From IMG/VR virus record IMGVR_UViG_3300043427_001452, positions 1 to 27,076 of that record: a stretch of 27,076 bases of DNA. One strand, 5' to 3'. Positions 2,897 through 22,783 of the stretch are shown here, piece by piece. The number at the start of each line of letters is the position of its first letter. The stretch's first letter is position 1. The translations under genes and the position numbers were made by a program. The stretch comes from a virus. The notes under the pieces were generated by a model. The model was not told the origin of the DNA, did not search any database, and worked only from the letters and a program-made list of their open reading frames with translations.

Positions 2897-5800
2897 ATGT
2901 CAAATACATCAATACAGTTAAAAAAATCAGGCGCAACAGGTAACACACCAACAGGCTTAGCCTTTGGTGAGGTTGCAATTAACTACGCCGATGGTAAACT
3001 GTATTACAAGAATGCACTGGGTGGAACATCTTACATTTCCAACCAGTTTTCATTCGACACCATCAATGCAAACAACTCACTGATACTTGCTACTGGTGTT
3101 TCAGATACTCTCTCTTTTGTTGCTGGTAATAATATAACGATCAGTACAAATACCACAACAAAAACAATCACAATTAATTCTACATCATCTGGTGCAACAG
3201 ACCAGTTTGCAAGAGATACATCCAATGCAGCATTTTTACAAGCCAATGCTGCTTATGCGAGTCAGAATACCACAGGAACATATGCAAACTCTGCATTCAC
3301 AAAAGCCAATAATGCACTCGCAAATACTAACGGTGCAACTTTTGGTGGTGATTTAAATGTTACCGGAAAACTTAGTGTAGTTGCATCATCTGGTGATGAA
3401 GGTGGTGAAATATTTTTAGCACAAGCACAAAGTAATACCACATTGTCTGGTGGTATCACCATCGATTCGTATCAAAATAAAATAAGATTTTTCGAACAAG
3501 GTGGATCGGCTCGAGGTGCTTACATAGATTTAACTGAATGTGTTGGTGGTGCAGGAACAAACATTTTAAATCCTGGAGCCACACCAGATAGTACGGCTAG
3601 AGCTACTGCTAATGCGGCATTCCTACAAGCCAATGCTGCCTATGGTTCACAAAATACCACCGGCACATATGCAAACTCAGCATATACACAAGCAAATACC
3701 GCAACTAATAATGCGGCTGGCGCTTCTTTATATGCTAACGCTGCTTTTATACAGGCTAATGCCGCTTTTGATAAAGCAAATTCTTCATCATTGGGTGGAT
3801 TTAGAGCCAACACTTTAGTTGTTGCAAACAGTACTGGTTTTCTTTCTAACTCTAACGCTGAGTTTAGTTTAGCAAACAATACTTTGTATGTCATTAATGC
3901 AACAGCAACAAATACATTCTTTGCAAACTCAGTTACTTTCAATGACGGCACAAAATTAATAAGTGCAAGTGGTCTTATTGCAAGTAATGCTGCAACTGCG
4001 AACGTTGCTATAAATGCTAGAATCACAAACGTAACAACAGGAACTTATTTCCCAATTGTTACCGACACAACAATTACAGGTGCCGACACATTCCATTATT
4101 CGAGCAATGACTTCTTAATGTATGCTGCGAATAATACATTTAGAGCTTCTGGTAATGTTTGGGCTGGGCAATTCCTTGCTGTTGGCACAAATATACCTGT
4201 TGTCAATTCTACTGGTCATTGGGTTGGTCAAACTGTAAATGGTGTCGATTCTTCGGCCAGATCAACAGCAAATTCTGCCGCACTTTACGCCAATGGTGCT
4301 TTCATACAGGCAAATGCAGCATTTTTAAGAGCCAATACACCAGATGCACAATACATTAGAAGTGGCACCAGTAATGTTTTCTTCTCAGGTGTAAATGGAA
4401 ATATAATAGCCAACGTTAGTGGAAACACAATTGTCACCATAACAGCCAATGGATTCTCAACATCTGGTGCAAATGGTGATATTAGTGGCGCAAATAACAT
4501 TTTCGGAAGCGTCATTAATGTAACAACGGCATCTATTGTTTCTGGTATCAATGTGGTGCCATACATTCAAAGTGCATTCAACAGAGCAAACAATTCATTG
4601 AATGCAAATACTGGTGGTAGAGTTACTGGAAATACCGTTATAAGCAACGTTGATATGGCTAACGCCATTTATAGTAACGTATCATTCTCTGTCGCAACAC
4701 AAGAAGATGCACCTTCAGCCATGTCTATTAGTGCTGATGGTAAGAAAATGTTTGTGATGGGTACGACAGGCGATGATGTAAACGAATACGACTTAACTAC
4801 TCCATGGTTGGTTTCTTCAGCAACATTTGTCAGAGTATTTTCTGTTGCTTCACAAGAAAATTTCCCAACAGGTTTATTTTTCCGTCCAGATGGTCTTAAA
4901 TTCTATGTTGTTGGCCAAACCAACGATACAGTTTACCAATATGCACTAACAACACCTTGGGATTTATCGACAGCTTCTTACGAAAGTAAATCGTTCTCCG
5001 TTTCTAGTCAAGATAATAATCCAACAGGTATATTCTTTAGACCTAATGGTTTGTCAATGTATGTGACAGGATCTTCAACAGACTCTGTTCATCAGTATAC
5101 TTTATCAACAGCTTGGGATGTTTCAACAGCCACATTCCTGCAATCTTTTAGTGTTGCCTCTGAAGAAACAGTACCACAAGATTTGTCTTTTGCTAACGAT
5201 GGTTCCCGAATGTTTGTTATGGGCAACATCGGTGATGATGTTAACATATACAATCTATCAACTTCGTGGAATGTTAGTACCGCCGTATTCTCAACAACAT
5301 TCAGTGTTGCTGCACAAGATGATGCACCAATAGGTATGTTCATTGAAGTGGACGGAAGTAGATTTTACATGCTTGGTTCAAGCAATGATACCGTCTATCA
5401 GTACAGACTTCCGATGGCGACAATTGAATTCACCGGAAACACATTTATAAATGGTGACATTAATATTTTACAGAATTTAAATGTTGATGGATCAGCCACA
5501 TTCCGCAATGAAATTATTTCGAATAATGTAATATCAAGCAACATTTATGTTTCTGGATATAATGTATTTACCTATATTACGAATGCTTACATACAAGCCA
5601 ATGCTGCATTTGCTGCAGCTAATGCTGGTGGAGCCGGCACAGACCAATTTGCTAGAAACACAGCTAATGCAGCCTTCATACAAGCTAACGCCGCTTTTGC
5701 AGTGGCCAATACTGGCGGTGGCGGCGGTCCAGGAACAGATAACGTAGCTAGACAAACTGCTAATGCAGCCTTCATACAAGCTAATGCAGCTTTCAATAAA

Positions 5801-6415
5801 GCCAATGTTGGTGGTGGAGGTTCAGATTTATTAGTTTATACCAATTTGTTCACCGCGAATGGTAATACAACAACCTTTGGTTTAAGCACAATACCACAAA
5901 ATAAAGATTATACAATAGTAAATATTAATGGTGTTGTTCAATTAAAAAATACTTATTCATTAAGTGGAAACACGCTTGTATTATCGGAAGTTGTTCCAGT
6001 AAACACAACTATTGAGATAACTGTTTTTGGTGGTGGAAGTGTTTCAGAATATTTTAATCGTTCATATACTGGCGATAATACAACCACTACTTTTGCTGTA
6101 ACAGGTGGCGTAACAAGTAACAGCATAATTGTTACCGAAAACGGTATTATACAACAACCTGGTGTTGACTACTATGTCAGTGGTTCAAATGTTATTTTCA
6201 CAACAGCACCAAGTTCCACAATAAGTATTGGTATACGCGAGCTTTCACGCGGAGTTTCAAATGGATCAAGTACATTCGTTACTCAAAATAAAACTGTTAT
6301 AGATAGTAATGTAACAATAGGTGCTGGTTATAGTGGAATAAGTGTTGGTCCATTAACCATAGCAAACAATGTAGTTATAAACATAGCTGCTGGACAAAAA
6401 TGGGTTATACTTTAA
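2897..6415 (+). CDS. Large tail fibre protein with five-repeat beta-propeller-like section
   Basis: This is an 1172-residue fibre, 4 bases after the coiled-coil gene. Residues 1-45 form the head (MSNTSIQLKKS and a GEVAINYADGKLYY motif). ANAAFxQANAAF heptads occur near residues 109-120, 238-249, 280-294, 457-480, 896-909, 922-938 and 952-970, and separate the domains as likely trimeric helical linkers. Residues 597-838 contain five repeats of about 51 residues, each starting FSVxxQ and containing a (F/M)YVxG-like strand, a DTVYQY-like strand and an STxWDVSTA-like strand, suggesting a beta-propeller. Residues about 978-1046 and 1050-1117 are two related beta domains (NGVVQ and NGIIQQPGVDYYVSG). 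The end, AAGQKWVIL, is typical of phage fibre tips. This gene does not end in DGGxF. Receptor binding is likely but inferred. Confidence 0.85.
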   Translation: MSNTSIQLKKSGATGNTPTGLAFGEVAINYADGKLYYKNALGGTSYISNQFSFDTINANNSLILATGVSDTLSFVAGNNITISTNTTTKTITINSTSSGATDQFARDTSNAAFLQANAAYASQNTTGTYANSAFTKANNALANTNGATFGGDLNVTGKLSVVASSGDEGGEIFLAQAQSNTTLSGGITIDSYQNKIRFFEQGGSARGAYIDLTECVGGAGTNILNPGATPDSTARATANAAFLQANAAYGSQNTTGTYANSAYTQANTATNNAAGASLYANAAFIQANAAFDKANSSSLGGFRANTLVVANSTGFLSNSNAEFSLANNTLYVINATATNTFFANSVTFNDGTKLISASGLIASNAATANVAINARITNVTTGTYFPIVTDTTITGADTFHYSSNDFLMYAANNTFRASGNVWAGQFLAVGTNIPVVNSTGHWVGQTVNGVDSSARSTANSAALYANGAFIQANAAFLRANTPDAQYIRSGTSNVFFSGVNGNIIANVSGNTIVTITANGFSTSGANGDISGANNIFGSVINVTTASIVSGINVVPYIQSAFNRANNSLNANTGGRVTGNTVISNVDMANAIYSNVSFSVATQEDAPSAMSISADGKKMFVMGTTGDDVNEYDLTTPWLVSSATFVRVFSVASQENFPTGLFFRPDGLKFYVVGQTNDTVYQYALTTPWDLSTASYESKSFSVSSQDNNPTGIFFRPNGLSMYVTGSSTDSVHQYTLSTAWDVSTATFLQSFSVASEETVPQDLSFANDGSRMFVMGNIGDDVNIYNLSTSWNVSTAVFSTTFSVAAQDDAPIGMFIEVDGSRFYMLGSSNDTVYQYRLPMATIEFTGNTFINGDINILQNLNVDGSATFRNEIISNNVISSNIYVSGYNVFTYITNAYIQANAAFAAANAGGAGTDQFARNTANAAFIQANAAFAVANTGGGGGPGTDNVARQTANAAFIQANAAFNKANVGGGGSDLLVYTNLFTANGNTTTFGLSTIPQNKDYTIVNINGVVQLKNTYSLSGNTLVLSEVVPVNTTIEITVFGGGSVSEYFNRSYTGDNTTTTFAVTGGVTSNSIIVTENGIIQQPGVDYYVSGSNVIFTTAPSSTISIGIRELSRGVSNGSSTFVTQNKTVIDSNVTIGAGYSGISVGPLTIANNVVINIAAGQKWVIL
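4685..5410 (+). repeat. Five tandem ~153-base coding repeats (propeller-like blades)
   Basis: The repeats begin at residues 597, 648, 700, 751 and 802 of the large fibre, with 51-52 residue spacing. The consensus is FSVxSQ-(D/E)xxP-GxxFxxDGxxMYVxG-xxDxVYQY-xLST-WDVSTA. The regular period and four strand-like segments per unit are what a propeller blade would give. Whether flanking sequence adds further blades is not clear. Confidence 0.8.
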
Positions 6416-6434
6416 TGTTTGGAAAGTGCGTCTA

Positions 6435-6440
6435 AGAGGA
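6435..6440 (+). promoter_or_regulatory. Ribosome binding site AGAGGA deciding the start at 6450
   Basis: AGAGGA ends 9 bases before the ATG at 6450. An in-frame ATT at 6426 overlaps this region but has no site of its own, so the ATG at 6450 (MRIYYYNGVYF) is preferred. Confidence 0.65.
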
Positions 6441-6449
6441 ATCACAATT

Positions 6450-6818
6450 ATGAGAATATATTATTATAACGGAGTCTATTTTAGAGATGATACGAACTCA
6501 AACAACGCACTAGAAGGTGAAGTTTATTTTGATCATATTCCTACGGAAGAAGAACTTCAACAGGTATTTCCCTTATTGAGTGAAACAAGAAGGTCAGTGG
6601 AACGCGATCAAATTTCATATTCGCGCAAACAAGCATACATACAAGAATCTGATCATTTATTCTTTATGTCACAGAGAGGTGAATGTGATTTTTCAGAGTG
6701 GTTAAGTAAAATTGCAGAAATAAAATCTAGATATCCGTACACAGATTCTGGTAGCGAAACTGAATTCGTTTCTGATACCGTACCTATTAATGATGAAAAC
6801 AATTCTACTGAAGAATGA
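6450..6818 (+). CDS. Putative tail fibre assembly or chaperone-like protein
   Basis: The protein has 122 residues from the ATG at 6450. It begins MRIYYYNGVYFRDD, has an acidic N-terminal half, and contains the block AYIQESDHLFFMSQRGE followed by WLSKIAEIKSRYPY. I recall the latter pattern (ESDxLFFxxQRGE...WLxKxxEIKxRYPY) from small proteins beside phage fibre genes that are often annotated as tail fibre assembly proteins. The position directly after the large fibre and before the tip-type genes fits a chaperone. The Asp, Glu and Ser-rich tail (residues about 100-122) looks disordered. The function is inferred from type and position only; it could also be a minor structural protein. Confidence 0.6.
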   Translation: MRIYYYNGVYFRDDTNSNNALEGEVYFDHIPTEEELQQVFPLLSETRRSVERDQISYSRKQAYIQESDHLFFMSQRGECDFSEWLSKIAEIKSRYPYTDSGSETEFVSDTVPINDENNSTEE

Positions 6819-6824
6819 AAAACT

Positions 6825-7583
6825 ATGCCAAGCATTATTAACGCATCGATATCATCAACAGGTCTTTTGCAATCAGCAGATGCCAGTGGCATTCTACAAT
6901 TACAGAGCAATGGTGTAACAGGATTAACTGTTGGTTCCGGAGGATTGTTAACCGCAGCCAACGGCATATTAATGTCTTCAATGACATTAGGTTCAGCCGT
7001 TACTGGAGAATTTGAATATGACGGAGGAGAATTATATTTTACACCATTGGACACTCAGCGTGGTTTGATACCAAACATGCAATATTATAGGTTAAATAGT
7101 GCATATGTAGGATCTAATGTCAATACTGTACAAAGTTTGTTTGGAGTGGGAGTAACATTAAGTTCGAATACCGTATATGCATTCGAAAGTGTTTTTGCCA
7201 TAAGTAAAACCGCTGGCACAACTTCGCATACAACAGGTTTAGGATTTGGTGGAACAGCAACCATAAACAATATTGGATATCATTTACACAATCAATTCGA
7301 TGCAACCGCATTTACAACTGTTCCATATAGTGGAACAGTTCTAAATCAATGGATAAGTTCGGCAACAAACACCACTATCAGCGGTGGATCAGTCTCGGCA
7401 GGAGCATATCGTGTTCTAAATATGCGAGGAACGGTATCAATAAATGCAGGCGGAACCTTTATTCCTCAATACACACTATCAGCGGCACCAGGAGGAGCAT
7501 ACACAACACAAATCGGAAGTTACTTTTTAATTTATCCAATTGGTGCCGCCGGCAGCAACACCAATATAGGAACTTGGGCTTAA
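6825..7583 (+). CDS. Putative tail fibre tip or appendage protein (252 residues)
   Basis: Residues 1-45 (MPSIINASISSTGLLQSADA, then a short repeat-like NGVTGLTVG) form a beta-rich head. Residues about 60-100 contain GEFEYDGGELYFTP, then RGLIPNMQYYRLNS. Residues about 105-140 contain VYAFESVFAISKTAG and TTSHTTGLGFGG. The remainder is beta-rich and Gly, Ser and Thr-rich, ending NTNIGTWA. I recall this EFxYDG...YFTP...RGLxP layout from putative tail fibre or appendage proteins of marine phages. It has no transmembrane segment or signal peptide. It starts 6 bases after the preceding stop with no clear Shine-Dalgarno sequence, suggesting coupling. It probably belongs to the distal fibre or a decoration; the exact placement is unknown. 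Confidence 0.65.
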   Translation: MPSIINASISSTGLLQSADASGILQLQSNGVTGLTVGSGGLLTAANGILMSSMTLGSAVTGEFEYDGGELYFTPLDTQRGLIPNMQYYRLNSAYVGSNVNTVQSLFGVGVTLSSNTVYAFESVFAISKTAGTTSHTTGLGFGGTATINNIGYHLHNQFDATAFTTVPYSGTVLNQWISSATNTTISGGSVSAGAYRVLNMRGTVSINAGGTFIPQYTLSAAPGGAYTTQIGSYFLIYPIGAAGSNTNIGTWA

Positions 7584-7595
7584 TAGGGATTAAAC

Positions 7596-8183
7596 ATGCC
7601 ATACGGAACATTAGCGCTAGACACAATAGAGAGTTCAGGTAATTTATCAGTTACTGGTAATTTTACTACTACGGGTACAATTACTAGTTCTACAGGTACA
7701 ACATATCCCTTAGTATTAGGAACAGCACAAGCTACGACCAGTGGCACTAGTATAGATTTCACTGATATTCCAAGTTGGGTAAAAAGAATTACAATTATGT
7801 ATAGCGGCGTTAGCACTAGCGGTACTAGTAATTGGTTAATACAGCTCGGAGATTCAGGTGGAGTTGAAAATACTGGATATTTGGGAGTTGGAACTTTTCT
7901 TGGAGCTACAACTAGTGGTACAAACTACACGGCTGGATTTGGATTACCAATAGGAGGAGCCACGCATGTATTGCACGGAACTGTTGTTCTTACTTTGCTC
8001 TCTGGTTCAACAAACACTTGGACTGCTATGGGTAACTTAGGTGGAACTGGAGGTGCTGCTGGTTACATATATTCTACTGGTGGAGCAAAATCTCTAAGTG
8101 GAACTTTAGATAGAGTTAGACTAACCACAGTAAACGGTACAGATACTTTCGACGCTGGCTCAGTTAATATTTTGTATGAGTAA
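7596..8183 (+). CDS. Fibre tip or appendage protein, tandem paralogue A
   Basis: The protein has 195 residues. Residues 1-40 (MPYGTLALDTIESSGNLSVT) resemble short fibre heads. From about residue 41 it contains GTAQATTSGTSIDFTDIP, WVKRITIM, several Gly-rich strands, and TLDRVRLT before the final NGTDTFDAGSVNILYE. The next gene repeats the same layout, so the two are a tandem duplication whose middle sections have diverged. In phages this beta-sandwich-like family is found at fibre or appendage positions. The duplication suggests two alternative or co-assembled surface tips. A function in host or surface binding is inferred. Confidence 0.7.
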   Translation: MPYGTLALDTIESSGNLSVTGNFTTTGTITSSTGTTYPLVLGTAQATTSGTSIDFTDIPSWVKRITIMYSGVSTSGTSNWLIQLGDSGGVENTGYLGVGTFLGATTSGTNYTAGFGLPIGGATHVLHGTVVLTLLSGSTNTWTAMGNLGGTGGAAGYIYSTGGAKSLSGTLDRVRLTTVNGTDTFDAGSVNILYE

Positions 8184-8192
8184 ACAATTATG
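8154..8192 (+). repeat. 39-base exact direct repeat, copy 1
   Basis: Starting GCTGGCTCAGTT and ending with the next gene's ATG, this 39-base stretch covers the last codons of paralogue A, its stop, the spacer and the start codon of paralogue B. An identical copy occurs at 8709-8747, 555 bases later. It marks the junction of the tandem duplication. Confidence 0.9.
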
Positions 8193-8738
8193 GCAATAAC
8201 ATTAGACGGAACTTTAGGATTAACTTTACCCGGTGCCGCAACAGGAGTACAAGTTGGATCATTAACTTCAGGAACAGCACAAGCTACGACCAGTGGTACT
8301 AGTATAGATTTCACTGATATTCCAGATTGGGTGAAAAGAATTACTGTCATGTTTAATGGTGTAAGTGGAAGTGGTACTGGCGCACTTGTGTGCCGAGTTG
8401 GAACTTCTAGTGGAGTCATATCTACTGGATATTTTAGCGTTTATGAGGGAATAGGAACAGGCGGAACAACTAGTAGTTTAGCATCAAATACAACATTTTT
8501 TGGTTTAATGGGCGGCCTAGCTGCTACCGACTTGTCATATGGTAGTATCATGCTTACTACAGTAGGAAGTAACATTTGGGTAATATCAGGAACAGTGTGC
8601 CGAGATGCTGCAACTGATGCTGTTTATATGACTTCTGGTGCAGTAACACTAAGTGGTACTTTAGATAGAGTAAGACTAACATGGTCCAACGGCACCGACA
8701 CCTTTGATGCTGGCTCAGTTAATATTTTGTATGAGTAA
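8190..8738 (+). CDS. Fibre tip or appendage protein, tandem paralogue B
   Basis: The protein has 182 residues and is the paralogue of the preceding gene. The head is different (MAITLDGTLGLTLPGAATG), a type common at phage fibre N-termini. The shared body starts GTAQATTSGTSIDFTDIP and WVKRITVM, and both proteins end NGTDTFDAGSVNILYE. At DNA level the segment near 8271-8343 is almost identical to 7719-7792, while the centre has diverged, as expected for a surface-exposed binding face. It starts 6 bases after the previous stop with no clear Shine-Dalgarno sequence. The function is inferred as for paralogue A. Confidence 0.7.
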   Translation: MAITLDGTLGLTLPGAATGVQVGSLTSGTAQATTSGTSIDFTDIPDWVKRITVMFNGVSGSGTGALVCRVGTSSGVISTGYFSVYEGIGTGGTTSSLASNTTFFGLMGGLAATDLSYGSIMLTTVGSNIWVISGTVCRDAATDAVYMTSGAVTLSGTLDRVRLTWSNGTDTFDAGSVNILYE

Positions 8739-8747
8739 ACAATTATG
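8709..8747 (+). repeat. 39-base exact direct repeat, copy 2
   Basis: This is identical to 8154-8192. It covers the end of paralogue B, its stop codon, the spacer and the ATG of the 29-codon ORF at 8745. The presence of the same junction before a third ORF suggests that tip genes are swapped or lost at this site. Confidence 0.9.
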
Positions 8748-8834
8748 CCATTAAAATTTGGCGCAGGAATGGGATCAGGTTCTACAACAGAAAACACCGC
8801 AGCAACAAGTCTATTTGTATTGATAAACAGTTAA
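8745..8834 (+). CDS. 29-residue ORF, possible fibre-gene remnant
   Basis: The ATG at 8745 opens a 29-codon frame encoding MPLKFGAGMGSGSTT and ending LFVLINS. It begins right at the 39-base repeat that precedes paralogue B, in the place where a third tip gene would start. It is too short for any known fibre fold. It may be the head of a lost gene or simply a short peptide. No ribosome binding site is evident beyond what the repeat provides. Whether it is translated is unknown. Confidence 0.35.
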   Translation: MPLKFGAGMGSGSTTENTAATSLFVLINS

Positions 8835-8855
8835 TATAAATCAAAGAAAAATAAA

Positions 8856-9644
8856 ATGGGAATTAATATAGGCCGAGGAATTAATGTTGGTGGTGGATTA
8901 ACATTTGGTTATTCTCCGTCACCCATTTCAGTTGAATATTTAATTGTTGCTGGTGCCGGTGGCGGCGGCGGCCGTGGAGTTAATGTAGGAGGCGGTGGCG
9001 GCGGAGCCGGTGGTTTATTAACTGGTATGGATTTTTTTAATTTCGATCAATCTTACGCAATTATTGTTGGTGCTGGCGGCGCCGGTGCGGCGTTCAACAC
9101 TAACGGAACTTCTGGGCAAAACTCATCATTTAACACAGTATCGGCAATTGGTGGTGGATTTGGTGCAATATTTGGACCCGCAGGAAACGGCGGAAGTGGA
9201 GGTGGTGTTACTGCTGCAAATCAAACCGCTGGTTCAGGCACCGCTGGCCAAGGAAATAACGGTTCTATAGGAACAGGCACAATTTTTGTAACACCCTGTA
9301 CCGGCGGTGGAGGAGGAGGTGCGGGTTCTGCGGCTAGCGGCCGCATTGGAGGTACAGGTTTAACAAATAGTATATCTGGATCTTCAGTAACATATGCAGT
9401 CGGCGGCGATGGTGGTAACACAGGAGGAGCAGGTAATACTTCAGGAGCTTCCAATACAGGCAATGCTGGTCGTGGATCGGACGGCGATGCATCTTTATCG
9501 GGTAGCGGTGGATCCGGCATCGTAATTATAAGATATTCTGATACATTGCCAGCAGCTAAGAGCACAACCGGTAGCCCCACAATTTCTGTGTCGGGTGGAT
9601 ATAGAATATATAGTTTTACTGGTTCTGGCTCAATTACATTTTAA
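8856..9644 (+). CDS. Glycine-rich adhesin-like fibre protein
   Basis: The protein has 262 residues. Residues 1-25 (MGINIGRGINVGGGLTFGYS) form a head, followed by VEYLIVAGAGGGGG near residue 28. Dense Gly-rich runs separated by less repetitive strands cover residues 30-225. The protein ends with RIYSFTGSGSITF. The glycine pattern resembles the distal adhesin gp38 of T-even-like phages (T2, S16), where parallel polyglycine II helices carry variable receptor-binding loops, and the similar Gly-rich tip proteins of marine phages. Variable-looking inserts such as TSGQNSSFNTVSA and NQTAGSGTAGQG could be such loops. A receptor-binding role is inferred. One cysteine is visible (near residue 149). Confidence 0.65.
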   Translation: MGINIGRGINVGGGLTFGYSPSPISVEYLIVAGAGGGGGRGVNVGGGGGGAGGLLTGMDFFNFDQSYAIIVGAGGAGAAFNTNGTSGQNSSFNTVSAIGGGFGAIFGPAGNGGSGGGVTAANQTAGSGTAGQGNNGSIGTGTIFVTPCTGGGGGGAGSAASGRIGGTGLTNSISGSSVTYAVGGDGGNTGGAGNTSGASNTGNAGRGSDGDASLSGSGGSGIVIIRYSDTLPAAKSTTGSPTISVSGGYRIYSFTGSGSITF

Positions 9645-9655
9645 GAGGTTAAAAA

Positions 9656-10024
9656 ATGGCACATTTTGCACAATTGGAAAATAATATTGTCACACAAGTA
9701 ATCGTAGTAAACAACCAAGAATTATTGGATGAAAACAATGTCGAGCAAGAAGAAAAAGGTATTGCTTTTTGCCAATCACTTTTGGGTGGCAATTGGAAGC
9801 AAACTAGTTATAACGGAAATATCAGAAAGAATTATGCAGGTGCAGGTTACACGTATGATGCTGAAAGAGATGCTTTCATTCCACCAAAACCATATGCATC
9901 TTGGATTTTGAATGAAGATACATGCAGATGGGAAGCACCAGTTGCTTTTCCAGACGATGAAAAGGCCTACACATGGAACGAAGAAACTGTTTCTTGGCAA
10001 GAGGTGATCCTAGATTTTGAATAA
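9656..10024 (+). CDS. Conserved phage protein of unknown function beside fibres
   Basis: The protein has 122 residues, starting MAHFAQLENNIVTQVIVVNN. The core contains FCQSLLGGNWKQTSYNG, NIRKNYAGAGYTYD, and DAFIPPKPYASWIL. Two tryptophan-containing repeats follow (EDTCRWEAPVAFPDD and EETVSWQEV). I recall very similar small proteins in many marine T4-like and other phages, usually near fibre genes and without an assigned function. The start follows AAGAGGTTAAAAA, with AGAGG as a plausible ribosome binding site. It lacks a signal peptide or membrane segment. A small structural or fibre-associated role is inferred from position. Confidence 0.7.
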   Translation: MAHFAQLENNIVTQVIVVNNQELLDENNVEQEEKGIAFCQSLLGGNWKQTSYNGNIRKNYAGAGYTYDAERDAFIPPKPYASWILNEDTCRWEAPVAFPDDEKAYTWNEETVSWQEVILDFE

Positions 10025-10027
10025 ATA
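10020..10027 (+). promoter_or_regulatory. Putative T4-type late promoter AATAAATA
   Basis: AATAAATA contains the stop codon of the 122-residue gene (TAA at 10022-10024) and lies 24 bases before the ATG of the LamG-array gene at 10052. It has the same form as the elements at 14691 and 22089. Confidence 0.55.
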
Positions 10028-10051
10028 CTTTATTTAAAAGACATTTAAAAC

Positions 10052-13000
10052 ATGCCACTAACTAGAATTCAACCGCAAGGTTTAGATAGCACTGGAACTT
10101 ATACATTCAATGGTATTATAGCAAACACTGCTATTGTTGCTGGTAATGATATCTCTTCTGGTGGCGGACCTAAAATAACAAATATACAGGTAACCAATAG
10201 TTCATACAATGTATTGGATGATACATCTGTAAGTACATCTGGTGGTTACATTAAAATTACAGGCACAGGCTTTGCATCTGGTTGTCAAGTATTAATTAAT
10301 AATACTCCAGTAACATCAGTAACTTTTGTAAGTGCAACTGAAGTTAGGGCACAAGTTCCTGCAACCTCGGCCGGAACATATGTTGTTTATTTGGTAAACG
10401 GTGACGGTGGTGTAGCAATACGAGTTAATGGTATTACATTTAGTGGCACACCTAATTGGGTAACATCAAGCACACTTCCAACTAGTGATCCGTTAGTATC
10501 CATTCAATTGAGTGCAACAAGTGATAGTGCAGTTGTATATTCATTGGCCGCAGGCAGCACTTTACCTACTGGTATAACACTTTCAAGTGGTGGTTTGTTG
10601 AGTGGAACTGTAACTGGATCAGGAGCAGATCAAACAACTTATAATTTTACTATAAATGCCATAGACGTAGAGTTGCAAGATAGCCCAAGAACATTTAGCA
10701 TAACGATAACTTTTAGTGATTTAAACTTTACTTATGTAACTACTTTGATTAGTGCAAACACTGCAACTTTGCCATACGACAGTGATGCCAGTAATAATAG
10801 TTTTGCAATAACACCAAATGGTGATGTTAGACCGAACGGCTTTAATCCATATACACCAGGTTATTACAGTAACTTTTTTGATGGTAGCGGTGACAATACA
10901 TCCGTGGCCACTAATGCAGCGTTCACTTTAGGAACAAACGATTTTTCTTTTGAAGCTTGGATATACCCAGTAAGCATTACTAATACATCAGCAGTTATTG
11001 CCAGTCAATGGGGTCTGAATGGCGATGAAGGAATCTGGCAACTAGCATTAACTTCGAACAATTTTCTTTTTCAATACGATACTGATGGTGCAGTTCCGGG
11101 GGGCACAGTATCTATCAGTACAACTGGTGGCATCACATTTAATCAATGGCAGCATGTTTTGGTTACCAGAGTGGCCAGCGGCGGCAACAGTATTACCAGA
11201 TTGTTTATCAATGGTGTGTTAAAAGCATATGATAGCAGGACTACTTATTCAATTACGTCTTCGGCATCACCTTTACGACTGGGTATGCAAGGATTCACTG
11301 GTTACAGAAACGGCGAGCCGTTTAACGGTTACATTTCAAACTTTAGGTTTGTTAATGGCTCAGTACCCACATCATATCTTACTAGTGCAACAACAGTAGA
11401 CACAGTGGTGTTTACACCGTCTACTGTTCCATTGACTACTACCTCGCAAGGTGCAACCGAATCTCAAGTTGAGTTGTTGTTGGCTCAAAGTAACCGATTC
11501 ATAGATAACAGCACAAATAACTTTACTGTTACTCGCAACGGCGACACGAGAATTGATGCGTTTGATCCATTTGTACCTGACACTAATTACAGTGCTTATG
11601 GTAGCGGATATTTTGATGGTACTGGTGATTACCTGACAGTTCCGGCAAACGCAGGATTTCAATTTGGAACAGGTGATTTTACAATTGAGTGTTGGATTTA
11701 CAAATCTTCGGCTGCAAATGGCCCAATTGTTGACGCTCGAGGTTCGTCTGTTGCAGCCGCGTATGCGGCCTATATAGACGGAAGCAACTTCCCTTACTTT
11801 TATGATGGCACATCGTATACATCCTCAGTAGCCATTACTAATGGTCAATGGAACCATGTAGCATTTGTGAGAACATCGGGAACATTAAAGATGTTTGTCA
11901 ACGGTGTACAAGGATACAGCGCAACACTTTCTTCTACTTTAAGCCCATCACAAACAGTATTCATTGGAGGACATAATTTTGCTACTCCAGCATATACAAC
12001 AGGTTATATATCTAACTTAAGAATAGTTAATGGAACCGCAGTATACACCTCAGCGTTTACCCCACCCACCACACCATTAACTGCTGTTGCCAACACCAGC
12101 TTACTAACACTACAAACCAATCAACCCGATAATAACAATATATTATTAGATTCCAGCACCAACAACTTCTTAATTACAAGAAACGGTAATACCACACAAG
12201 GCACATTTAGCCCATATGGTCCATTATGGAGTAATTATTTTGATGGCACTGGAGATTATTTAAGTATGCCAAGCAATTCTGCATTTGCGTTTGGTACAGG
12301 ATCATATACAGTTGAAGCCTGGGTATATTTCACCGCATGGGATGGAAATGAATCAAATGTATTTGGATCTGCCAGTGCTAGTGGAGGATTTTCTTTATCT
12401 GTATATCCCACCGGAAGACTAAGTGTTTCAAAATATGGAACTGGTAATATATTACAAACAAACACTGGTTTAATAAATTTAAATACCTGGTATCATATTG
12501 CGGCATCTAGAACCAGCACATCATCAAATAGCACTTATCTTTTCATCAACGGAACACTTGTAACAACTGGTACAGACGCAGAAAATTGGTCGGTTTCTTC
12601 TAGCCCTATAATAGGTGGATGGTCTAACTTAACCACATATGATGTTACCGGATATATTTCAAATCTTAGAGTGGTGAAAGGTACCGCACTTTATACCGCA
12701 AACTTTACACCATCCACTTCACCACTAACTGCTGTTGCAAATACAAGTTTGTTAACATGTAATGAAAATAGATTTATTGATGATAGTCCAAATAATTTTA
12801 CTATCACAAGGAACGGTGATGTTAATGTACAAAGATTTAGTCCTTTTGGTCTGCAAACCTTAAACACTTTTTACAGTGGTTATTTTGATGGTACTGGGGA
12901 TTATTTGAGTCTTGCTAGCAATACAGCATTTGCAGCACCCGGAGATTTCACAGTTGAGTTTTGGGTAAATACACCAACAACCGCTAGTAGTCAAGTATTC

Positions 13001-14695
13001 TATCTAGTAAACGCAACCAACGGATTGATTGTATATGTAACATCTAACAAGGTTGTTATTAGAAGTTATGGTATTGCTAATCTACTGACTTCTTCTATTG
13101 ATATGCCACTAAATCAATGGGTGCATATTGCAGCAGCAAGAAGTGGAACTACATTATCATTATGGATTAATGGTTCTCGCTCAAACGGAGGCACCGTAAC
13201 CAATTCAACAAGTTTTGCCCAAGGCGAACTTCGTATAGGAAACAACGAAGATGTTACCCTAGGTACAATAGGTTATATATCAAATGTGAGGTTCGTTAAA
13301 GGCACTGCTGTTTATGATCCCGCTCAGTCGTCTATAACAGTACCAACATCACCACTAACTGCGATAGCCAACACCAGCTTACTAACCTGTCAGAGTGCAA
13401 CATTTGTTGACAATTCAACTAACAACTTTACCATCACCGTTAATGGTAATTCTAGACCGACCACAGTTGCACCATTTACACCCACATCGACTACAGGAGT
13501 CAGTTACTCTCCAAGCGTATATGGTGGCAGTATGTATTTTGATGGTAGTGGAGACTATTTAACTGTTCCGCCCAGCACAACAACATATTTGTCTAATAGA
13601 GCATTCACCATTGAAGCATGGGTTTATCTTAATGCGAACGATGTAATATTAGTATCTCGCCGAGCAGCAGTTTCAGCTCGTGGTTTTTTCTTCTCATATG
13701 GAAACGTTACAAATAACAAATTCAGTTTTAATGCTGGTGATACTGATGTTAATGCTTGGAATGTGCAGTTGACTTCAACAGATACTTTTTCTTTGAGACA
13801 ATGGCACCATGTTGCAATAACTAGAAATTCCAGTAATGTATTCACTCTATGGGTCAATGGGATATCTCAAGCAACTGGTACTGCTTCATTTACTATAGCA
13901 GATGACACAAGCAACTTGTTAATTGGTACCGTAGACAGCGGAAGTGGTCCAATGAATGGATATATTTCCAATCTACGAATTATAACAGGTCAAGCACTTT
14001 ACACCAGCAATTTTGCACCACCCGTTAGTCCATTAACAGCAATTCAAAACAGTGTTTTATTGTTAAACGGTACCAGTGCAGGCGTTTATGACAGTTCTAT
14101 GATGAACGATTATGAAACCGTGGGCAATAGTAGTTTGGTAACAAGCATTAAAAAATACGGCAATAGTAGTTTATATTTTGATGGTTCTGGTGATTATCTA
14201 ACTTCTCTTTATATTCAATCTCAAGAACCGGGTTCAAGTAATTTAACTTGGGAAATGTGGATCAAAACAACCAGTTCATTACAATATGCAACATTGTATA
14301 GTCGCCAGCCTGGAACATTTACTTCAGGCATGTATTCATTGCTGATAAACTCAGCATCATCCACTGCTGGAGATGTTGCTCTATGGGTTGCTGATTTTAG
14401 CGCAGGAGGCCCTTTGTTGCAGACCACAGGAGTAAATGTTCGTGATGATAATTGGCACCATATAGCTGTGGTTAGAAATGGCAGTTCTTGGGTATTATAT
14501 GTAGACGGAACATCTAGATCCACAGGAACTTGGAGCGGAGCTATAGCTGCACTATCTACACCTACGCGCATTGGAGCAGACCAAAATTATGGTCGTGCAT
14601 ACACAGGATACATGGGTGATTTACGAATCACCCGAGGTATAGCTCGTTACACCGCAAACTTCACTCCAACCACTCTTCCATTTATAACCAAATAA
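10052..14695 (+). CDS. Giant LamG-array adhesin with IPT/TIG-like domain
   Basis: The protein has 1547 residues. Residues 1-35 form a short head (MPLTRIQPQGLDSTGTYTFN). Residues about 40-130 resemble an IPT/TIG immunoglobulin-like domain (GGYIKITGTGFASGCQVLIN, then ATEVRAQVPA). Residues about 130-222 resemble a putative Ig (He_PIG-type) domain (LPTGITLSSGGLLSGTV). Six LamG/concanavalin-like modules then start near residues 272, 519, 726, 941, 1157 and 1371. Each has YFDG(T/S)GDYL near its start, an (E/C)xW(I/V) strand, a W-H-(V/I) segment and GYISNLR(I/V)xxGxAxY at its end. The linkers carry PLTAVANTSLLT and NNFTITRNGD. LamG folds often bind glycans, so this is a candidate multivalent surface-binding protein. 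There is no signal peptide. The ligand is unknown. Confidence 0.8.
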   Translation: MPLTRIQPQGLDSTGTYTFNGIIANTAIVAGNDISSGGGPKITNIQVTNSSYNVLDDTSVSTSGGYIKITGTGFASGCQVLINNTPVTSVTFVSATEVRAQVPATSAGTYVVYLVNGDGGVAIRVNGITFSGTPNWVTSSTLPTSDPLVSIQLSATSDSAVVYSLAAGSTLPTGITLSSGGLLSGTVTGSGADQTTYNFTINAIDVELQDSPRTFSITITFSDLNFTYVTTLISANTATLPYDSDASNNSFAITPNGDVRPNGFNPYTPGYYSNFFDGSGDNTSVATNAAFTLGTNDFSFEAWIYPVSITNTSAVIASQWGLNGDEGIWQLALTSNNFLFQYDTDGAVPGGTVSISTTGGITFNQWQHVLVTRVASGGNSITRLFINGVLKAYDSRTTYSITSSASPLRLGMQGFTGYRNGEPFNGYISNFRFVNGSVPTSYLTSATTVDTVVFTPSTVPLTTTSQGATESQVELLLAQSNRFIDNSTNNFTVTRNGDTRIDAFDPFVPDTNYSAYGSGYFDGTGDYLTVPANAGFQFGTGDFTIECWIYKSSAANGPIVDARGSSVAAAYAAYIDGSNFPYFYDGTSYTSSVAITNGQWNHVAFVRTSGTLKMFVNGVQGYSATLSSTLSPSQTVFIGGHNFATPAYTTGYISNLRIVNGTAVYTSAFTPPTTPLTAVANTSLLTLQTNQPDNNNILLDSSTNNFLITRNGNTTQGTFSPYGPLWSNYFDGTGDYLSMPSNSAFAFGTGSYTVEAWVYFTAWDGNESNVFGSASASGGFSLSVYPTGRLSVSKYGTGNILQTNTGLINLNTWYHIAASRTSTSSNSTYLFINGTLVTTGTDAENWSVSSSPIIGGWSNLTTYDVTGYISNLRVVKGTALYTANFTPSTSPLTAVANTSLLTCNENRFIDDSPNNFTITRNGDVNVQRFSPFGLQTLNTFYSGYFDGTGDYLSLASNTAFAAPGDFTVEFWVNTPTTASSQVFYLVNATNGLIVYVTSNKVVIRSYGIANLLTSSIDMPLNQWVHIAAARSGTTLSLWINGSRSNGGTVTNSTSFAQGELRIGNNEDVTLGTIGYISNVRFVKGTAVYDPAQSSITVPTSPLTAIANTSLLTCQSATFVDNSTNNFTITVNGNSRPTTVAPFTPTSTTGVSYSPSVYGGSMYFDGSGDYLTVPPSTTTYLSNRAFTIEAWVYLNANDVILVSRRAAVSARGFFFSYGNVTNNKFSFNAGDTDVNAWNVQLTSTDTFSLRQWHHVAITRNSSNVFTLWVNGISQATGTASFTIADDTSNLLIGTVDSGSGPMNGYISNLRIITGQALYTSNFAPPVSPLTAIQNSVLLLNGTSAGVYDSSMMNDYETVGNSSLVTSIKKYGNSSLYFDGSGDYLTSLYIQSQEPGSSNLTWEMWIKTTSSLQYATLYSRQPGTFTSGMYSLLINSASSTAGDVALWVADFSAGGPLLQTTGVNVRDDNWHHIAVVRNGSSWVLYVDGTSRSTGTWSGAIAALSTPTRIGADQNYGRAYTGYMGDLRITRGIARYTANFTPTTLPFITK
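10865..14690 (+). repeat. Six LamG-like modules with ~645-base period
   Basis: Modules begin near 10865, 11605, 12228, 12874, 13522 and 14163. From the second on, spacing is 620-650 bases; the first unit is longer. Conserved landmarks per unit are YFDGxGDYL, the W-H-(V/I)-A segment and GYISNLR, and the inter-module linker PLTAxxNTSLL repeats between units 2 to 5. Confidence 0.8.
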
Positions 14696-14717: not shown

Positions 14718-15491
14718 ATGGCCACAATAACAACAAGAACAGCTTTCAAAGAATATTGCCTAAGAAGACTAGGTTTTCCTGTCATCGAAATCAATATTGA
14801 TGATGACCAGGTGGAAGATCGTATCGATGATGCATTACAGTATTGGCAAGACTATCATTTTGACGGTCTGCAAAAATTATACTTCATCAAACGAATCGAT
14901 CAAACCGATATTGACAATCATTATTTGGATCTTAGTCAAGCCAGAGACACCGCAAACAACGTTTCGGAAATTACTGGTGTGACCAGAATATTTCCAATGT
15001 ATGATTCTCAAGCATCGATTAACATGTTCGACTTGAGATATCAGTTGCGTCTAAACGAATTGTATGACTTTACTTCCGCATCATACATTAACTACACAAT
15101 GACGATGCAACATCTACGTATGTTGGAACAATTGTTTGTTGGTGAAGTTCCCATCCGTTATCAAAGACATATGCAAAAGTTGTTTATTGATTGGGCATGG
15201 GGTTCTCGACAGGCACCGGTTGGAACAATAGTTGTTGTTGAGTGTTATGGTTTAATTGATCCTGGTGCGTATGGTAGAGTCTGGAATGATCGTTGGTTAA
15301 AAGAATATGCAACTGCACTCATCAAGAGAAGTTGGGGCAATAATCTGAAGAAGTTTGCCGGTGTTCAATTACCAGGCGGCGTAACTTTGAACGGAGATAA
15401 AATATACACCGAAGCTGTAGATGAAATAAAGATGCTGGAAGCCGACATGGAAAAGAATTATGGTGGTATTTTGGAATTCTATTTGAACTAA
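14718..15491 (+). CDS. 13: Neck protein gp13
   Basis: The protein has 257 residues; T4 gp13 has about 309. It starts FKEYCLRRLGFPVIEINIDD, with DDQVEDRIDDALQYWQDYHF close behind, the hallmark N-terminus of T4-like gp13. The middle holds RHMQKLFIDWAWGS and GYGLID-like ECYGLIDPGAYGRVW. The C-terminal RSWGNNLKKFAGVQLPGGV is also typical. In T4, gp13 and gp14 form the neck that seals the filled head and receives the tail. AAAGGA at 14705-14710 is a good ribosome binding site. The gp13-gp14-gp15 order supports the call. gp14 follows after 1 base. Confidence 0.93.
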   Translation: MATITTRTAFKEYCLRRLGFPVIEINIDDDQVEDRIDDALQYWQDYHFDGLQKLYFIKRIDQTDIDNHYLDLSQARDTANNVSEITGVTRIFPMYDSQASINMFDLRYQLRLNELYDFTSASYINYTMTMQHLRMLEQLFVGEVPIRYQRHMQKLFIDWAWGSRQAPVGTIVVVECYGLIDPGAYGRVWNDRWLKEYATALIKRSWGNNLKKFAGVQLPGGVTLNGDKIYTEAVDEIKMLEADMEKNYGGILEFYLN

Positions 15492-15492
15492 T

Positions 15493-16377
15493 ATGGCAAC
15501 CTCAGTATATTTCAATAACTACAACTCGATTGCGGAACAAAGAGTTGTTGAGGACTTAATAGTCGAATCCATTAAGATTATGGGTTTCGATGCATATTAT
15601 TGCCCAATCTTCAATGAAGAAGATAGAGATATACTGTATGGTGAAGATCCAGTTAAAAAATTCAAGTCTGCTTTCCCTGTCGAATTCTATCTTTCGAATG
15701 CTTTGGAGTATATGGGAGACAAAGAGTTCTTTACCAAGTTTGGTTTAGAAATTCGAAACAACGCAAACGTTATCATATCAAAGCGTTCTTTCTCTCAACG
15801 TGTTCCACAGAACGTATTTACAAGACCACGTGAAGGTGATCTGATTTATGTGCCGTTCTTAAATGGTACTGGTGAATTATTTGAGATCAAGTTTGTGAAT
15901 CAAACAAAAGACTTCTTCACACTTGGTCGCAAGATTCCATTCTTTTATGAATTGGAACTTGAGAAGTTTAAGTATTCTCAAGAAGTTATCGATACCGGTA
16001 TTGCTGATATTGATGATGTTGTGACACAATCTAGTTACACAATCGATCTAACAGTTCGTAACGGAAATGCAATAAACTATTCACAAAAAGAAATTGTGTA
16101 TCAGTCTAGTGATCAAACACTGGCAAATGCATCTTCTAGTGCAACTGTACAAAATTGGGATGCATCATCAAATACCATAAGTGTTACAAACATTTATGGA
16201 GAATTTACAGACAACGTTACAATTATTGGTGCAACAAGTAATGCTCGATATATGTTAACAACTTACAATCCTTTGAGAGATAGTACGCCAAATGAAAACT
16301 ATGACAATATGTACATAGAAGATCAGGCAAATAATATTATTGATTTCACGGAAATTAATCCGTTTGGAAAAATTTAA
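15493..16377 (+). CDS. 14: Neck protein gp14 with extra C-terminal domain
   Basis: The protein has 294 residues; T4 gp14 has about 256. Residues 1-185 match the gp14 type (YFNNYNSIAEQRVVEDLIVE, then FDAYYCPIFNEEDRDILYGE). Residues about 189-263 form an extra beta-rich domain (EIVYQSS, ATVQNWDASSNTISVTNIYG, IIGATSNARYMLTTYNP) that also occurs at the C-terminal side of gp15. The gp14 stop and the gp15 ATG share one base (TAATG), so translation is likely coupled. With gp13 it builds the neck. The role of the extra domain is unknown; it may be surface-exposed at the collar. Confidence 0.92.
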   Translation: MATSVYFNNYNSIAEQRVVEDLIVESIKIMGFDAYYCPIFNEEDRDILYGEDPVKKFKSAFPVEFYLSNALEYMGDKEFFTKFGLEIRNNANVIISKRSFSQRVPQNVFTRPREGDLIYVPFLNGTGELFEIKFVNQTKDFFTLGRKIPFFYELELEKFKYSQEVIDTGIADIDDVVTQSSYTIDLTVRNGNAINYSQKEIVYQSSDQTLANASSSATVQNWDASSNTISVTNIYGEFTDNVTIIGATSNARYMLTTYNPLRDSTPNENYDNMYIEDQANNIIDFTEINPFGKI

Positions 16378-17402
16378 TGGCAGCAATTCAATACAATCGC
16401 ATCATACGAAAAATTGTTGTTGGGTTTGGTGACCTATTCAATAATATTACACTGGTGCGTTACGACTCAAATCAAATCGAAAAGGAAAGATTCTTAATAC
16501 CTATTGCATACGCTTCCAAAGAACGTTATGTGATGCGTTTAGAGGATGATCCAAATCTGGACAAAAAAGTACAGATCGCTTTACCTCGTCTGTCTTTTGA
16601 AATGACTGGGCTTTCTTATGATAGTTCCAGAAAGCAAAACACAAACGTCAAGAATTTTGCTTCTGGTGCAACTGGTACACTATCACAATACAATCCAGTA
16701 CCATACAATTTCGACTTCAATCTATATTTGTATGTGCGTAATATTGAAGACGCAACTCAAGTCATTGAACATATCGTACCATATTTCACACCAGATTATA
16801 CAGTAAAATTAAATCTGATTCCTGAAATGGGTATCGTAAAAGAAATACCTGTGATTTTAAATTCCACAGATCACGAAATAGTTTATGAAGGTGATAGAGA
16901 ACAAGCCACAAGAATGATCATTTGGACTTTAAAGTTCACTGTCAAAGGTTTCATATTTGGTAAACACACGGAAACAAATCTCATCAGGCATTCAATTTCT
17001 TCAATATACAGTTTAAATTCCACAAATGATGTTGTATCATTTACAATGAATCCAGCCACAGGAAATGGATATTATGGAATAGGAGATGTTGTTTACCAAG
17101 GGTATTCTTTTGGTACAGCCACAGCCACTGCAAAAGTTACACAGTGGATACCTTCTCTAAATATTTTGAGACTGACAGATATAAAAGGTAATTTCAATTC
17201 ATTGTCTCCAATTATTTCTGCCCAAACAAATGCAAGTTATACATACACATCGTACTCACCATTCGAAGGCAAGTATGCACAAATTAATACTGCAACTGCA
17301 ACATTCGATTTGAATACATATACCATGGACAGCACTGCTGGTGATATTACGATGGACCTGGATTCAGGTAAATATCCATCATCAATAAGGGAATACAATT
17401 AA
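16377..17402 (+). CDS. 15: Tail terminator (sheath stabiliser) gp15 with extra C-terminal domain
   Basis: The protein has 341 residues; T4 gp15 has about 272. Residues 1-200 match gp15 (NRIIRKIVVGFGDLFNNITL, PRLSFEMTGLSYDSSRKQN, then ATRMIIWTLKFTVKGFIFG). In T4, gp15 forms a hexameric ring at the top of the tail that stops sheath and tube growth and binds the neck. Residues about 222-297 form an added domain (DVVYQGYSFGTATATAKVTQ, LRLTDIKGNF, YTSYSPFEG) homologous in pattern to the gp14 extension. The final stretch (residues 300-341) is Thr, Asp and Tyr-rich. Only 1 base separates it from the next gene. Confidence 0.93.
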   Translation: MAAIQYNRIIRKIVVGFGDLFNNITLVRYDSNQIEKERFLIPIAYASKERYVMRLEDDPNLDKKVQIALPRLSFEMTGLSYDSSRKQNTNVKNFASGATGTLSQYNPVPYNFDFNLYLYVRNIEDATQVIEHIVPYFTPDYTVKLNLIPEMGIVKEIPVILNSTDHEIVYEGDREQATRMIIWTLKFTVKGFIFGKHTETNLIRHSISSIYSLNSTNDVVSFTMNPATGNGYYGIGDVVYQGYSFGTATATAKVTQWIPSLNILRLTDIKGNFNSLSPIISAQTNASYTYTSYSPFEGKYAQINTATATFDLNTYTMDSTAGDITMDLDSGKYPSSIREYN

Positions 17403-17403
17403 A

Positions 17404-18240
17404 ATGGCTCAAGAAGTAATAAACACAGGAACATTACCAAATGATGGTAAGGGCGATACTTTAAGAGTAGCCGGCCAAAAAATAAACAATAACTTTTTTG
17501 AATTATTCAATGTCGGTGCCGTAACAGATAACACAGCCAGACAAAGAGCTAACGCAGCTTTCGATACAGCAAACACAAAAATTACAAAAACTGGTGATGT
17601 TGTTACTGGTTCATTGATTTTTAGAACGAATGCAAACAACACTTATTGTAATACCAGAATTGGTAACATTCAAGAAGCCAACTCTATTGATATCTACGCA
17701 GAAAATGAATATGAATGGGCACAGTTAAACTGGGCAAACACAAATTTCGTGTTCGTTGACTATGAAGGTGTCATTGCATCAACTCAAAATACATCCATTG
17801 AATTGAAGAATTCTGGTGAAAAAATCACACTTGTTGCAAACACAAACAGTTGGGCATTTGGTGCAAACGGAAGAATAACTATTTTCGACAGTGCAACAGC
17901 AGAACAAACAACTCTGGCCCCAGGTTTCAGAAATGTAGTAAGAATATCCTCAAACACATTCAACGCATCAAACACAAGTGATGTTATCTTCTGTGATCCA
18001 AATGCAGCTGGTGCAAATATAACGGTTAATTTTTCCGCTAATGTGAGTCCAGGCAAAACTTATACAGTGAAGAACATAAATTCTGGCAGTTTTAATATTA
18101 AAGTGAATGGAACAGAAAGAGCTTATCCTTACATAGAAAACCCAGATAACCATTCTTTTGTTACCAGTTTCACACTACCAAATACTGGTGCTGTTTATAC
18201 ATGGGTTTTTGAAAATGGAGTGTATAGATACATTGCTTAA
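17404..18240 (+). CDS. Fibre-like structural protein inserted between gp15 and gp16
   Basis: The protein has 278 residues. Residues 1-40 (MAQEVINTGTLPNDGKGDTL followed by a NNNFFELFN segment) are a head type that I recall from structural proteins of marine T4-like phages. Residues 43-57 carry the ARQRANAAFDTAN heptad also found in the large fibre at 2897. The body is beta-rich, with a C-terminal domain of about 100 residues (PGKTYTVKNINSGSFNIKVN and VYTWVFENGVYRYIA). In T4, gp15 is followed directly by gp16, so this is an accessory gene within the conserved block. It may be a whisker or collar fibre, or another decoration of the neck or tail. Placement and function are inferred. Confidence 0.7.
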   Translation: MAQEVINTGTLPNDGKGDTLRVAGQKINNNFFELFNVGAVTDNTARQRANAAFDTANTKITKTGDVVTGSLIFRTNANNTYCNTRIGNIQEANSIDIYAENEYEWAQLNWANTNFVFVDYEGVIASTQNTSIELKNSGEKITLVANTNSWAFGANGRITIFDSATAEQTTLAPGFRNVVRISSNTFNASNTSDVIFCDPNAAGANITVNFSANVSPGKTYTVKNINSGSFNIKVNGTERAYPYIENPDNHSFVTSFTLPNTGAVYTWVFENGVYRYIA

Positions 18241-18242
18241 AA

Positions 18243-20328: not shown

Positions 20329-20339
20329 AAACAATGTTT

Positions 20340-20347
20340 CATAAATA
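20340..20347 (+). promoter_or_regulatory. Putative T4-type late promoter CATAAATA before gp18
   Basis: CATAAATA lies 12 bases after the gp17 stop and 55 bases before the gp18 ATG, with one mismatch to TATAAATA. A separate promoter here fits the high amount of sheath protein needed. The AGGAG ribosome binding site of gp18 lies at 20391-20395. Confidence 0.6.
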
Positions 20348-20401
20348 ACCATTATGGTATTCAACTGCCAAAAGAACAAATATTAATTCAAGGAGAATAA
20401 A

Positions 20402-22090: not shown

Positions 22091-22096
22091 TAAATA
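22089..22096 (+). promoter_or_regulatory. Putative T4-type late promoter AATAAATA before gp19
   Basis: AATAAATA overlaps the gp18 stop codon (22088-22090) and lies 20 bases before the gp19 ATG at 22117. The ribosome binding site CGGGAG is at about 22105-22110. This fits separate strong expression of the tube protein. Confidence 0.55.
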
Positions 22097-22116
22097 AACA
22101 ATAACGGGAGAAAAAA

Positions 22117-22698: not shown

Positions 22699-22702
22699 AG
22701 TG

Positions 22703-22710: not shown

Positions 22711-22721
22711 TTGATTTAAAC

Positions 22722-22743: not shown

Positions 22744-22783
22744 ACTTATGATTAGTTGATTTTATTATTAATTTTTAAAAAAC

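Follow-up and report, generated by a model that had tools for sequence, protein, structure and literature searches.

Tail-fibre mosaicism, the modular pairing of adaptors with heads and recombination between conserved motifs are already known in phages. Recombination between the conserved motifs of T-even adhesins is said to swap specificity, a result attributed to the 1998 work of Tetart et al. The T-even gp38 adhesins themselves are described as having variable receptor-binding stretches flanked by conserved motifs (PMC12892980). In pelagimyophages and cyanomyophages, a hypervariable tail-fibre island, the host recognition cluster, lies between VrlC and the neck gene gp14 (PMC7029224). The Ackermannviridae possess a branched tailspike complex encoded by several receptor-binding genes, which are conserved in the N-terminal domain and variable in the C-terminal head; in this family, a receptor-binding domain was transferred by recombination between tsp4 and tsp5, and under other selection tsp3 was deleted and tsp4 truncated (PMC11414711). 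The receptor-binding proteins (RBPs) of Klebsiella phages combine an N-terminal anchor with an exchangeable C-terminal specificity module, and laboratory chimeras of these proteins work (PMC8262889).

The locus described here, from a T4-like marine myovirus, is a row of tail-fibre genes that lies a short way before the neck genes. In the window (the whole stretch of viral DNA analysed, 27,076 nt), positions 14718-25956 have PHROG matches to connector/neck, sheath stabiliser, large terminase, sheath, tube, portal and head protease proteins, and the terminase has about 55% identity to its counterparts in Synechococcus phages and in Pelagibacter phage Mosig. As the neck and structural genes lie directly downstream, the row sits where the host recognition cluster is described (PMC7029224): a variable fibre row adjoins the neck genes in the structural region, and the row differs between relatives. 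The relatives compared are viral contigs from metagenome assemblies, designated L002, L003 and so on. A nucleotide search with positions 6825-9644 in 50,697 phage records gave zero matches, and a protein search with one of the tip genes, paralogue B, found 27 records, all below 60% identity. The features of the row are as follows, P1 to P5 being the slots in which the tip genes stand.

6426..6818, + strand: accessory protein of 130 aa before the P1 gene (PHROG matches without a function, best E 2.6e-8)
6825..7583, + strand: P1-slot tip gene, 252 aa, with a head type of its own and the adaptor MPSIINAS..LQLQSNG
7596..8183, + strand: paralogue A, P2-slot tip gene, 195 aa, DFT-type head (PHROG 29482 match)
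7596..7718, + strand: P2 adaptor of A, residues 1-41
7718..7772, + strand: 5' head-flank block in A, 54/55 identical to the block in B
8154..8192, + strand: 39-nt repeat, copy 1 (A tail, stop, spacer, ATG of B)
8190..8738, + strand: paralogue B, P3-slot tip gene, 182 aa (PHROG 29482 match; head 75% identical to the P1-slot head of L003)
8231..8848, + strand: stretch replaced in close relatives (in L025 by 6636-7611, the remainder of a P3-slot gene whose head is glycine-rich)
8270..8324, + strand: 5' head-flank block in B, 54/55 identical to the block in A
8709..8747, + strand: 39-nt repeat, copy 2 (B tail, stop, spacer, ATG of a 29-codon open reading frame)
8745..8834, + strand: 29-codon open reading frame (ORF), probable scar of a headless P4-slot glycine-rich tip gene
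8856..9644, + strand: P5-slot tip gene, glycine-rich head (PF21722), 97-98% identical in L025, L026, L187 and L006

Slots were assigned by reading the N-termini, at which a small set of adaptors recurs: MPSIINAS.. in P1 (6825), MPYG.. in P2 (A), M[AP][IL]TLDGT.. and its kin in P3 (B), MPLxFGAG in P4 (8745) and MGINIGRGI in P5 (8856). P1, P2 and P3 are found together in nine distinct arrays, those of the window, L025 (with two further contigs carrying the same array), L006, L003, L005, L004, L107, L194 and L201; contig 3300047564_003786 (L002), which shares 11,127 nt with the window at 100% identity, was counted with it. The order P1-P2-P3 is kept in seven of the nine, the exceptions being L005 and L004. 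The heads, whose types in these arrays were assigned by reading and by Pfam scans, vary behind each adaptor. At P1, the 252-aa type of the window occurs in three of the nine arrays and the DFT type (as in A and B) in six. P2 bears DFT heads in four, glycine-rich heads in L107 and L004, and another kind in L003, L194 and L201, while P3 bears DFT heads in four and glycine-rich PF21722 heads in five. Adaptors related to that of the window's P1 gene carry other heads in L025, L006, L003, L107, L004 and L201, and P1-related adaptors front other heads in 13 more loci, some of which are near-copies of one another. Each gene thus reads as a slot-specific N-terminal adaptor followed by an interchangeable head.

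Several further observations concern the row and its surroundings. In L200 and L202-L213, P1-related adaptors precede quite different heads, and the neighbouring genes are unlike those of the T4-like row. L013 (5779-7915) and L018 (3863-5996) each have three genes in tandem that carry the C-terminal tail motif seen here behind N-termini that differ; such rows are, therefore, not confined to the window's lineage. Accessory proteins occur at positions in the row that vary by phage: 130 aa before P1 in the window, 97 aa after P2 in L003 (7237-7530) and 86 aa after P3 in L005 (6553-6813). That of the window has Pfam matches only below the cut-off (E 0.012), and is absent from the corresponding place in L025, L006 and L003. 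Upstream of the row, positions 2897-6415 encode a 1172-aa fibre protein with ANAAFIQANAAF-type repeats, which is mosaic, with 59% identity to its L025 counterpart at residues 1-143 and 84% at residues 479-1043. Directly after the row, positions 10052-14695 encode a 1547-aa protein with six LamG/ConA-like (PF13385) stretches; its residues 1-74 are 99% identical in L186, the whole protein is only 62% identical in L106, and it may also be exchanged internally.

The heads of A and B match the profile of PHROG 29482 (E 1.1e-10 and 9.1e-11, respectively), a family with no stated function. B has one weaker match to a tail-fibre family (E 1.1e-4), and neither protein has a Pfam match at E 0.1. A confident structural model of B (mean pLDDT 86.9, pTM 0.81) is all-beta. 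A fold search with this model gave no PDB match at E 0.001, the best being an MIC1-GLD entry at 0.013. A second comparison gave a best Z of 7.6, to a GH32 beta-sandwich and lectin-type domains, a likeness that, according to the warning issued with the tool, may be only a common arrangement. There were 98 matches at E 0.001 in a library of viral structures, and five of the best 50 of these have descriptive names (two Stf side tail fibre-repeat, tail fiber, collagen repeat and fibronectin). Heads of the A/B type might bind receptors, as presumed from their position and family, and the fold leads are only weakly lectin-like.

The initial annotation had drawn attention to an exact 39-base repeat running across a gene end, stop, spacer and next start codon, and leading once into B and once into a 29-codon ORF; both statements hold. 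The repeat is direct (39/39 nt, 8154-8192 and 8709-8747), the flanking bases extend the match on neither side, and it is the longest exact repeat of the window, the next measuring 27, 27, 26 and 20 nt. Its 23-nt core has just two sites in the window with up to three mismatches allowed, and none in 100 shuffles. It consists of the last nine codons (AGSVNILYE), TAA, the spacer ACAATT and ATG, after which copy 1 continues into B at 8190 and copy 2 into the ORF at 8745-8834. The paralogues were also said to share their ends and an N-proximal core. Their C-terminal 16 residues are indeed common to both and a 55-nt block further upstream differs at a single position, but the shared core is the start of the head domain: the stretches ahead of the block (A residues 1-41 and B residues 1-27) have 39% identity over aligned positions and are different N-terminal adaptors. 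Where A and B have the same residue, their codons are identical in 9/9 cases in the tail and 3/11 just upstream. Among 24 within-contig pairs, A and B are the only one with 9/9 tail codons; nine identical tail codons are also found in 6 of the 1343 between-contig pairs having at least eight matching residues, and the exact identity of the two tails is only moderately unusual. In a permutation of codon runs, the terminal run had p 0.016 and the longest run p 0.46. Little, therefore, rests on the exactness of the repeat alone.

The head of B, behind a P3 adaptor, is 75% identical to the P1 head of L003, 57% to the head of A and 41% to the P3 head of L003. The P3 head of L005 is 71-74% identical to the P1 heads of L025 and L006, and the P1 head of L201 is 70% identical to the P3 head of L003. 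Three heads that stand behind P3 in one phage thus appear to have their closest relatives behind P1 in another. The head of A is 83-88% identical to P2 heads of other contigs, and P2 heads lie on one side of a branch both in a 13-row tree (support 90/89) and in a 74-row tree (99). Approximately unbiased (AU) tests reject a single clade of P1 heads (p 8e-37 with 13 rows, 3e-6 with 10 rows) and a single clade of P3 heads (p 3e-71 and 2e-7). They do so again with L201 added, for P1 (p 1e-35 with 14 rows, 4e-9 with 11 rows) and for P3 (p 1e-71 and 1e-4), although L201 was chosen after its likeness to the P3 head of L003 had been seen, which makes the 14- and 11-row tests dependent on that likeness. 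In the 13- and 14-row trees long branches (L107, L004) meet, against which the tool cautions. In a 74-row tree from a quick search, a single clade is not rejected by the AU test for P1 heads (p 0.43) or P3 heads (p 0.46), and the starred branches force at least three changes each for P1 and P3 heads. Movement of heads between slots is, thus, backed by the smaller trees and not confirmed by the 74-row test.

Replacement of heads can also be read from the closest relatives. The nearest conserved flanks of L025, L026 and L187 are 96% identical to the window (4393-5793 and 8849-10893), as is 15488-17546 in the two that cover that region; other stretches of this group are less similar, with 84% at 3666-4233, for example. 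In the L025 group, A is 87% identical over 7596-8230, and the replacement then begins, 8231-8848 spanning most of B and the 29-codon ORF. The same replacement, with the same kind of P3 gene, is found in L006 and L188 (about 95% in the same flanks). The replaced stretch starts about 41 nt into the P3 gene and stops 7 nt short of the P5 start codon. The first 21 nt of the window's B are those of L025 and the next 24 nt those of L003, so the lineage switches within the first codons of B. L002, over the 11,127 nt in which it is identical to the window, shows no variation.

These comparisons bear on the proposal, in the initial annotation, that the repeat marks a cassette site at which tip genes are added or removed by homologous recombination while start signals are kept, with gain, loss or exchange to be looked for between repeat copies in relatives. 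Gene order is not fixed among the relatives, in which heads of one kind occupy different slots; the B region is replaced in four contigs, and heads seem to be exchanged between blocks with start codons intact. The unit, however, would be the head and not the whole gene between repeats. The product of a crossover from repeat to repeat (the tail of A leading into the start of the 29-codon ORF) is absent from the eight junctions in seven contigs found in two scans of the collection (these include the six junctions in five contigs of the first scan), and one of the eight (L215) looks like a chance match, with its stop 19 codons before the end of the tail motif.

The junction block (tail, stop and spacer) has an ancestry of its own, apart from that of the head. 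The P1 genes of L003 and L006 have heads that are 51% identical, with tails matching at 27/27 nt and leaders at 11/12; those of L006 and L025 have heads that are 91-92% identical, with tails matching at 23/27 nt and leaders that also differ. The L006 and L025 genes do not differ in the adaptor (0/180), but they do so at 12/54 positions of the 5' block, 20/375 of the head interior and 8/42 of the junction block; differences are denser than in the interior both in the 5' block (p 1.5e-4) and in the junction (p 0.004). The tail of the window's B matches that of A at 27/27 nt and that of its nearest head relative, the P1 gene of L003, at 23/27. The tail 14-mer GCTGGCTCAGTTAA is present in 7/8 distinct tails of close kin (in slots P1, P2 and P3) and 0/85 other tails, and, when only AGSVN tails are considered, in 7/8 of the close kin vs 0/7 of the others. 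A scan of informative sites along B gave slot-like shares (resembling the L003 gene of the same slot) of 37/41 in the adaptor, 32/170 in the head and 4/5 at the end; the sites in the head that are not slot-like match the donor, the P1 gene of L003. The gain of this slot/donor/slot mosaic was reached in 0/500 shuffles. Six further mosaic comparisons also beat all 500 shuffles, with right ends of 5/5, 2/3, 11/25, 4/8, 4/6 and 5/5; the right-hand breakpoints have few informative sites, two of the seven lacking a slot-like majority, and the left-hand breakpoint is partly trivial because the adaptors of different slots hardly align.

The 5' block carries a signal that is read more cautiously. At 11/11 of its sites where A differs between the window and L025, the window's A matches B, as compared with 18/46 in the middle of the gene (Fisher p 3e-4). 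The family consensus suggests that the A genes of L025 and L006 are derived in this block; the likeness between A and B is, therefore, not counted as proof of conversion within the genome, and may simply be ancestral.

The 29-codon ORF is better read as a deletion scar than as an incoming tip gene. L003 has, in P4, a 307-codon glycine-rich gene with a PF12810 match. The ORF agrees with this gene at 21/23 of its first nucleotides and at 53/66 of the last 66 nt of the gene (32 at best in 200 shuffles), and the window and L003 have nearly the same spacer ahead of P5. The L003 gene holds exactly two copies of the heptamer GCAGGAA, one at offset 18 and one at 852 and each in frame, and loss of the 834 nt between the copies leaves 307 - 278 = 29 codons. 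It is strongly suggested that the ORF is the scar of a P4 gene with its head deleted in frame; we infer the deletion and its endpoints, because L003 is not the ancestor of the window. The scar is otherwise recorded only in L002, a contig with the same sequence as the window that may not count as an independent case.

The explanation that we consider quite probable is that heads are replaced by homologous recombination between short blocks in a row of slots, one of which is now headless. Each slot would keep its own short N-terminal adaptor, and the C-terminal head, presumed to face the receptor, would be replaceable. Heads of the A/B type would be bounded by the 5' block GTAQATTSGTSIDFTDIP and by the conserved 3' tail, which runs into the stop, the spacer and the next ATG. 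Whether two phages infect one cell or two slots of a single genome are involved, homologous recombination at these short blocks would put in a new head and leave adaptors, reading frames and translation starts intact. The 39-nt repeat would then represent two slots with the same version of the 3' block, and the 29-codon ORF a third slot, with its head lost by in-frame deletion between two GCAGGAA copies. The modular anatomy, the presence of one kind of head across slots, the separate ancestry of tails and heads, and the replacement in close relatives are apparent from the aligned contigs, exchange itself being read from the comparison of metagenome assemblies rather than from directly observed events. 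The agent would presumably be recombination encoded by the phage: T4-like phages carry a RecA-family protein, UvsX, and a RecA-family gene is present in a 156-kb relative. The heads would bind receptors, and host range would change.

The initial annotation took A and B for a tandem duplication; in a recent one, the shared ends would be unchanged remains and the centres would have diverged by selection. The two genes do have heads of the same family, are adjacent on the same strand, and share the exact 39 nt and the 54/55-nt block, but the head of B groups with the P1 head of another phage, at 75% identity as against 57% to A, and that of A with P2 heads elsewhere. Their adaptors also differ, and L025 and L006 have A with a different gene in the B slot. 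A simple tandem duplication was rejected on the grouping of the B head, and we regard it as very improbable.

It is also unlikely, to a lesser degree, that the 39-nt identity reflects conservation of a constrained C-terminus and of a spacer used for translation coupling, rather than exchange. Among the fetched loci, 92 distinct proteins carry the C-terminal motif of A and B (the motif served to select them, so that the count indicates spread and not invariance), a near-identical spacer, AGAATT, follows the P3 gene of L003, and even between contigs 53% of the same-residue codons in the nine final positions agree. Conservation of this kind sits poorly, however, with the fall in codon identity just upstream of the A and B tails, with their being the sole within-contig pair of full tail identity, with the restriction of the 14-mer to the kin group, and with the different tails behind the nearly identical L006 and L025 heads. 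A dedicated site-specific switch might use an exact direct repeat placed at gene boundaries, but recombination between direct repeats would cause deletion and not inversion, the block differs from slot to slot and from lineage to lineage, and the eight junctions of the two scans include no repeat-to-repeat product; we give this explanation scarcely any credence.

The choice of cells that a phage infects is presumed to lie with its tail-fibre tips. In this locus, the fixed parts (the adaptor and often the junction) can be separated from the moving head at the nucleotide level, and natural variants have been caught both ways, with heads moved to another slot and with a gene that has no head. It could thus be tested which tip combinations occur in one population and whether the similarity of the flanking blocks is maintained for exchange. 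A more elaborate version, which we put forward as a tentative and rather doubtful possibility, resembles a plug-board: slot-keyed adaptors would fix positions in the virion, and the 5' and junction blocks would be kept similar by selection as recombination sites. If so, one double crossover would move a head to another slot with translation unbroken, and emptied slots, with scars like the 29-codon ORF, would be refillable.

The fibre row of the window resembles the host recognition cluster in lying directly upstream of neck and structural genes; the report, in the text available, treats that island as a whole and not its slot adaptors, any moves of heads from slot to slot or any scars (PMC7029224). 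The tsp events described in the Ackermannviridae are much like the head moves and the headless gene seen here, but the tailspikes are joined by XD domains, whereas the window has heads of about 150 residues on short adaptors (PMC11414711). These heads are all-beta (as modelled for B) or glycine-rich, and Pfam and PHROG scans of the row, which were general and not aimed at such a domain, named no XD/gp10-like domain. The gp38 system, as described, involves one adhesin gene with variable loops inside one poly-glycine II domain, whereas whole heads stand behind different adaptors in several genes of the window; the glycine-rich neighbours of A and B match PF21722 or PF12810, as known from profiles rather than from a fold comparison with gp38. 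As in the Klebsiella RBPs, the tip genes pair an N-terminal module with an exchangeable C-terminal one, but those RBPs, as described, bear depolymerases and number one or two per phage, whereas the window has a row of several small tip genes (PMC8262889). Slot-keyed head exchange in T4-like marine phages was not found among the titles and abstract openings of the literature listed, and what is apparently new in this locus is the combination of a slot-adaptor row of tip genes, one kind of head across slots, junctions with their own ancestry and a headless slot.
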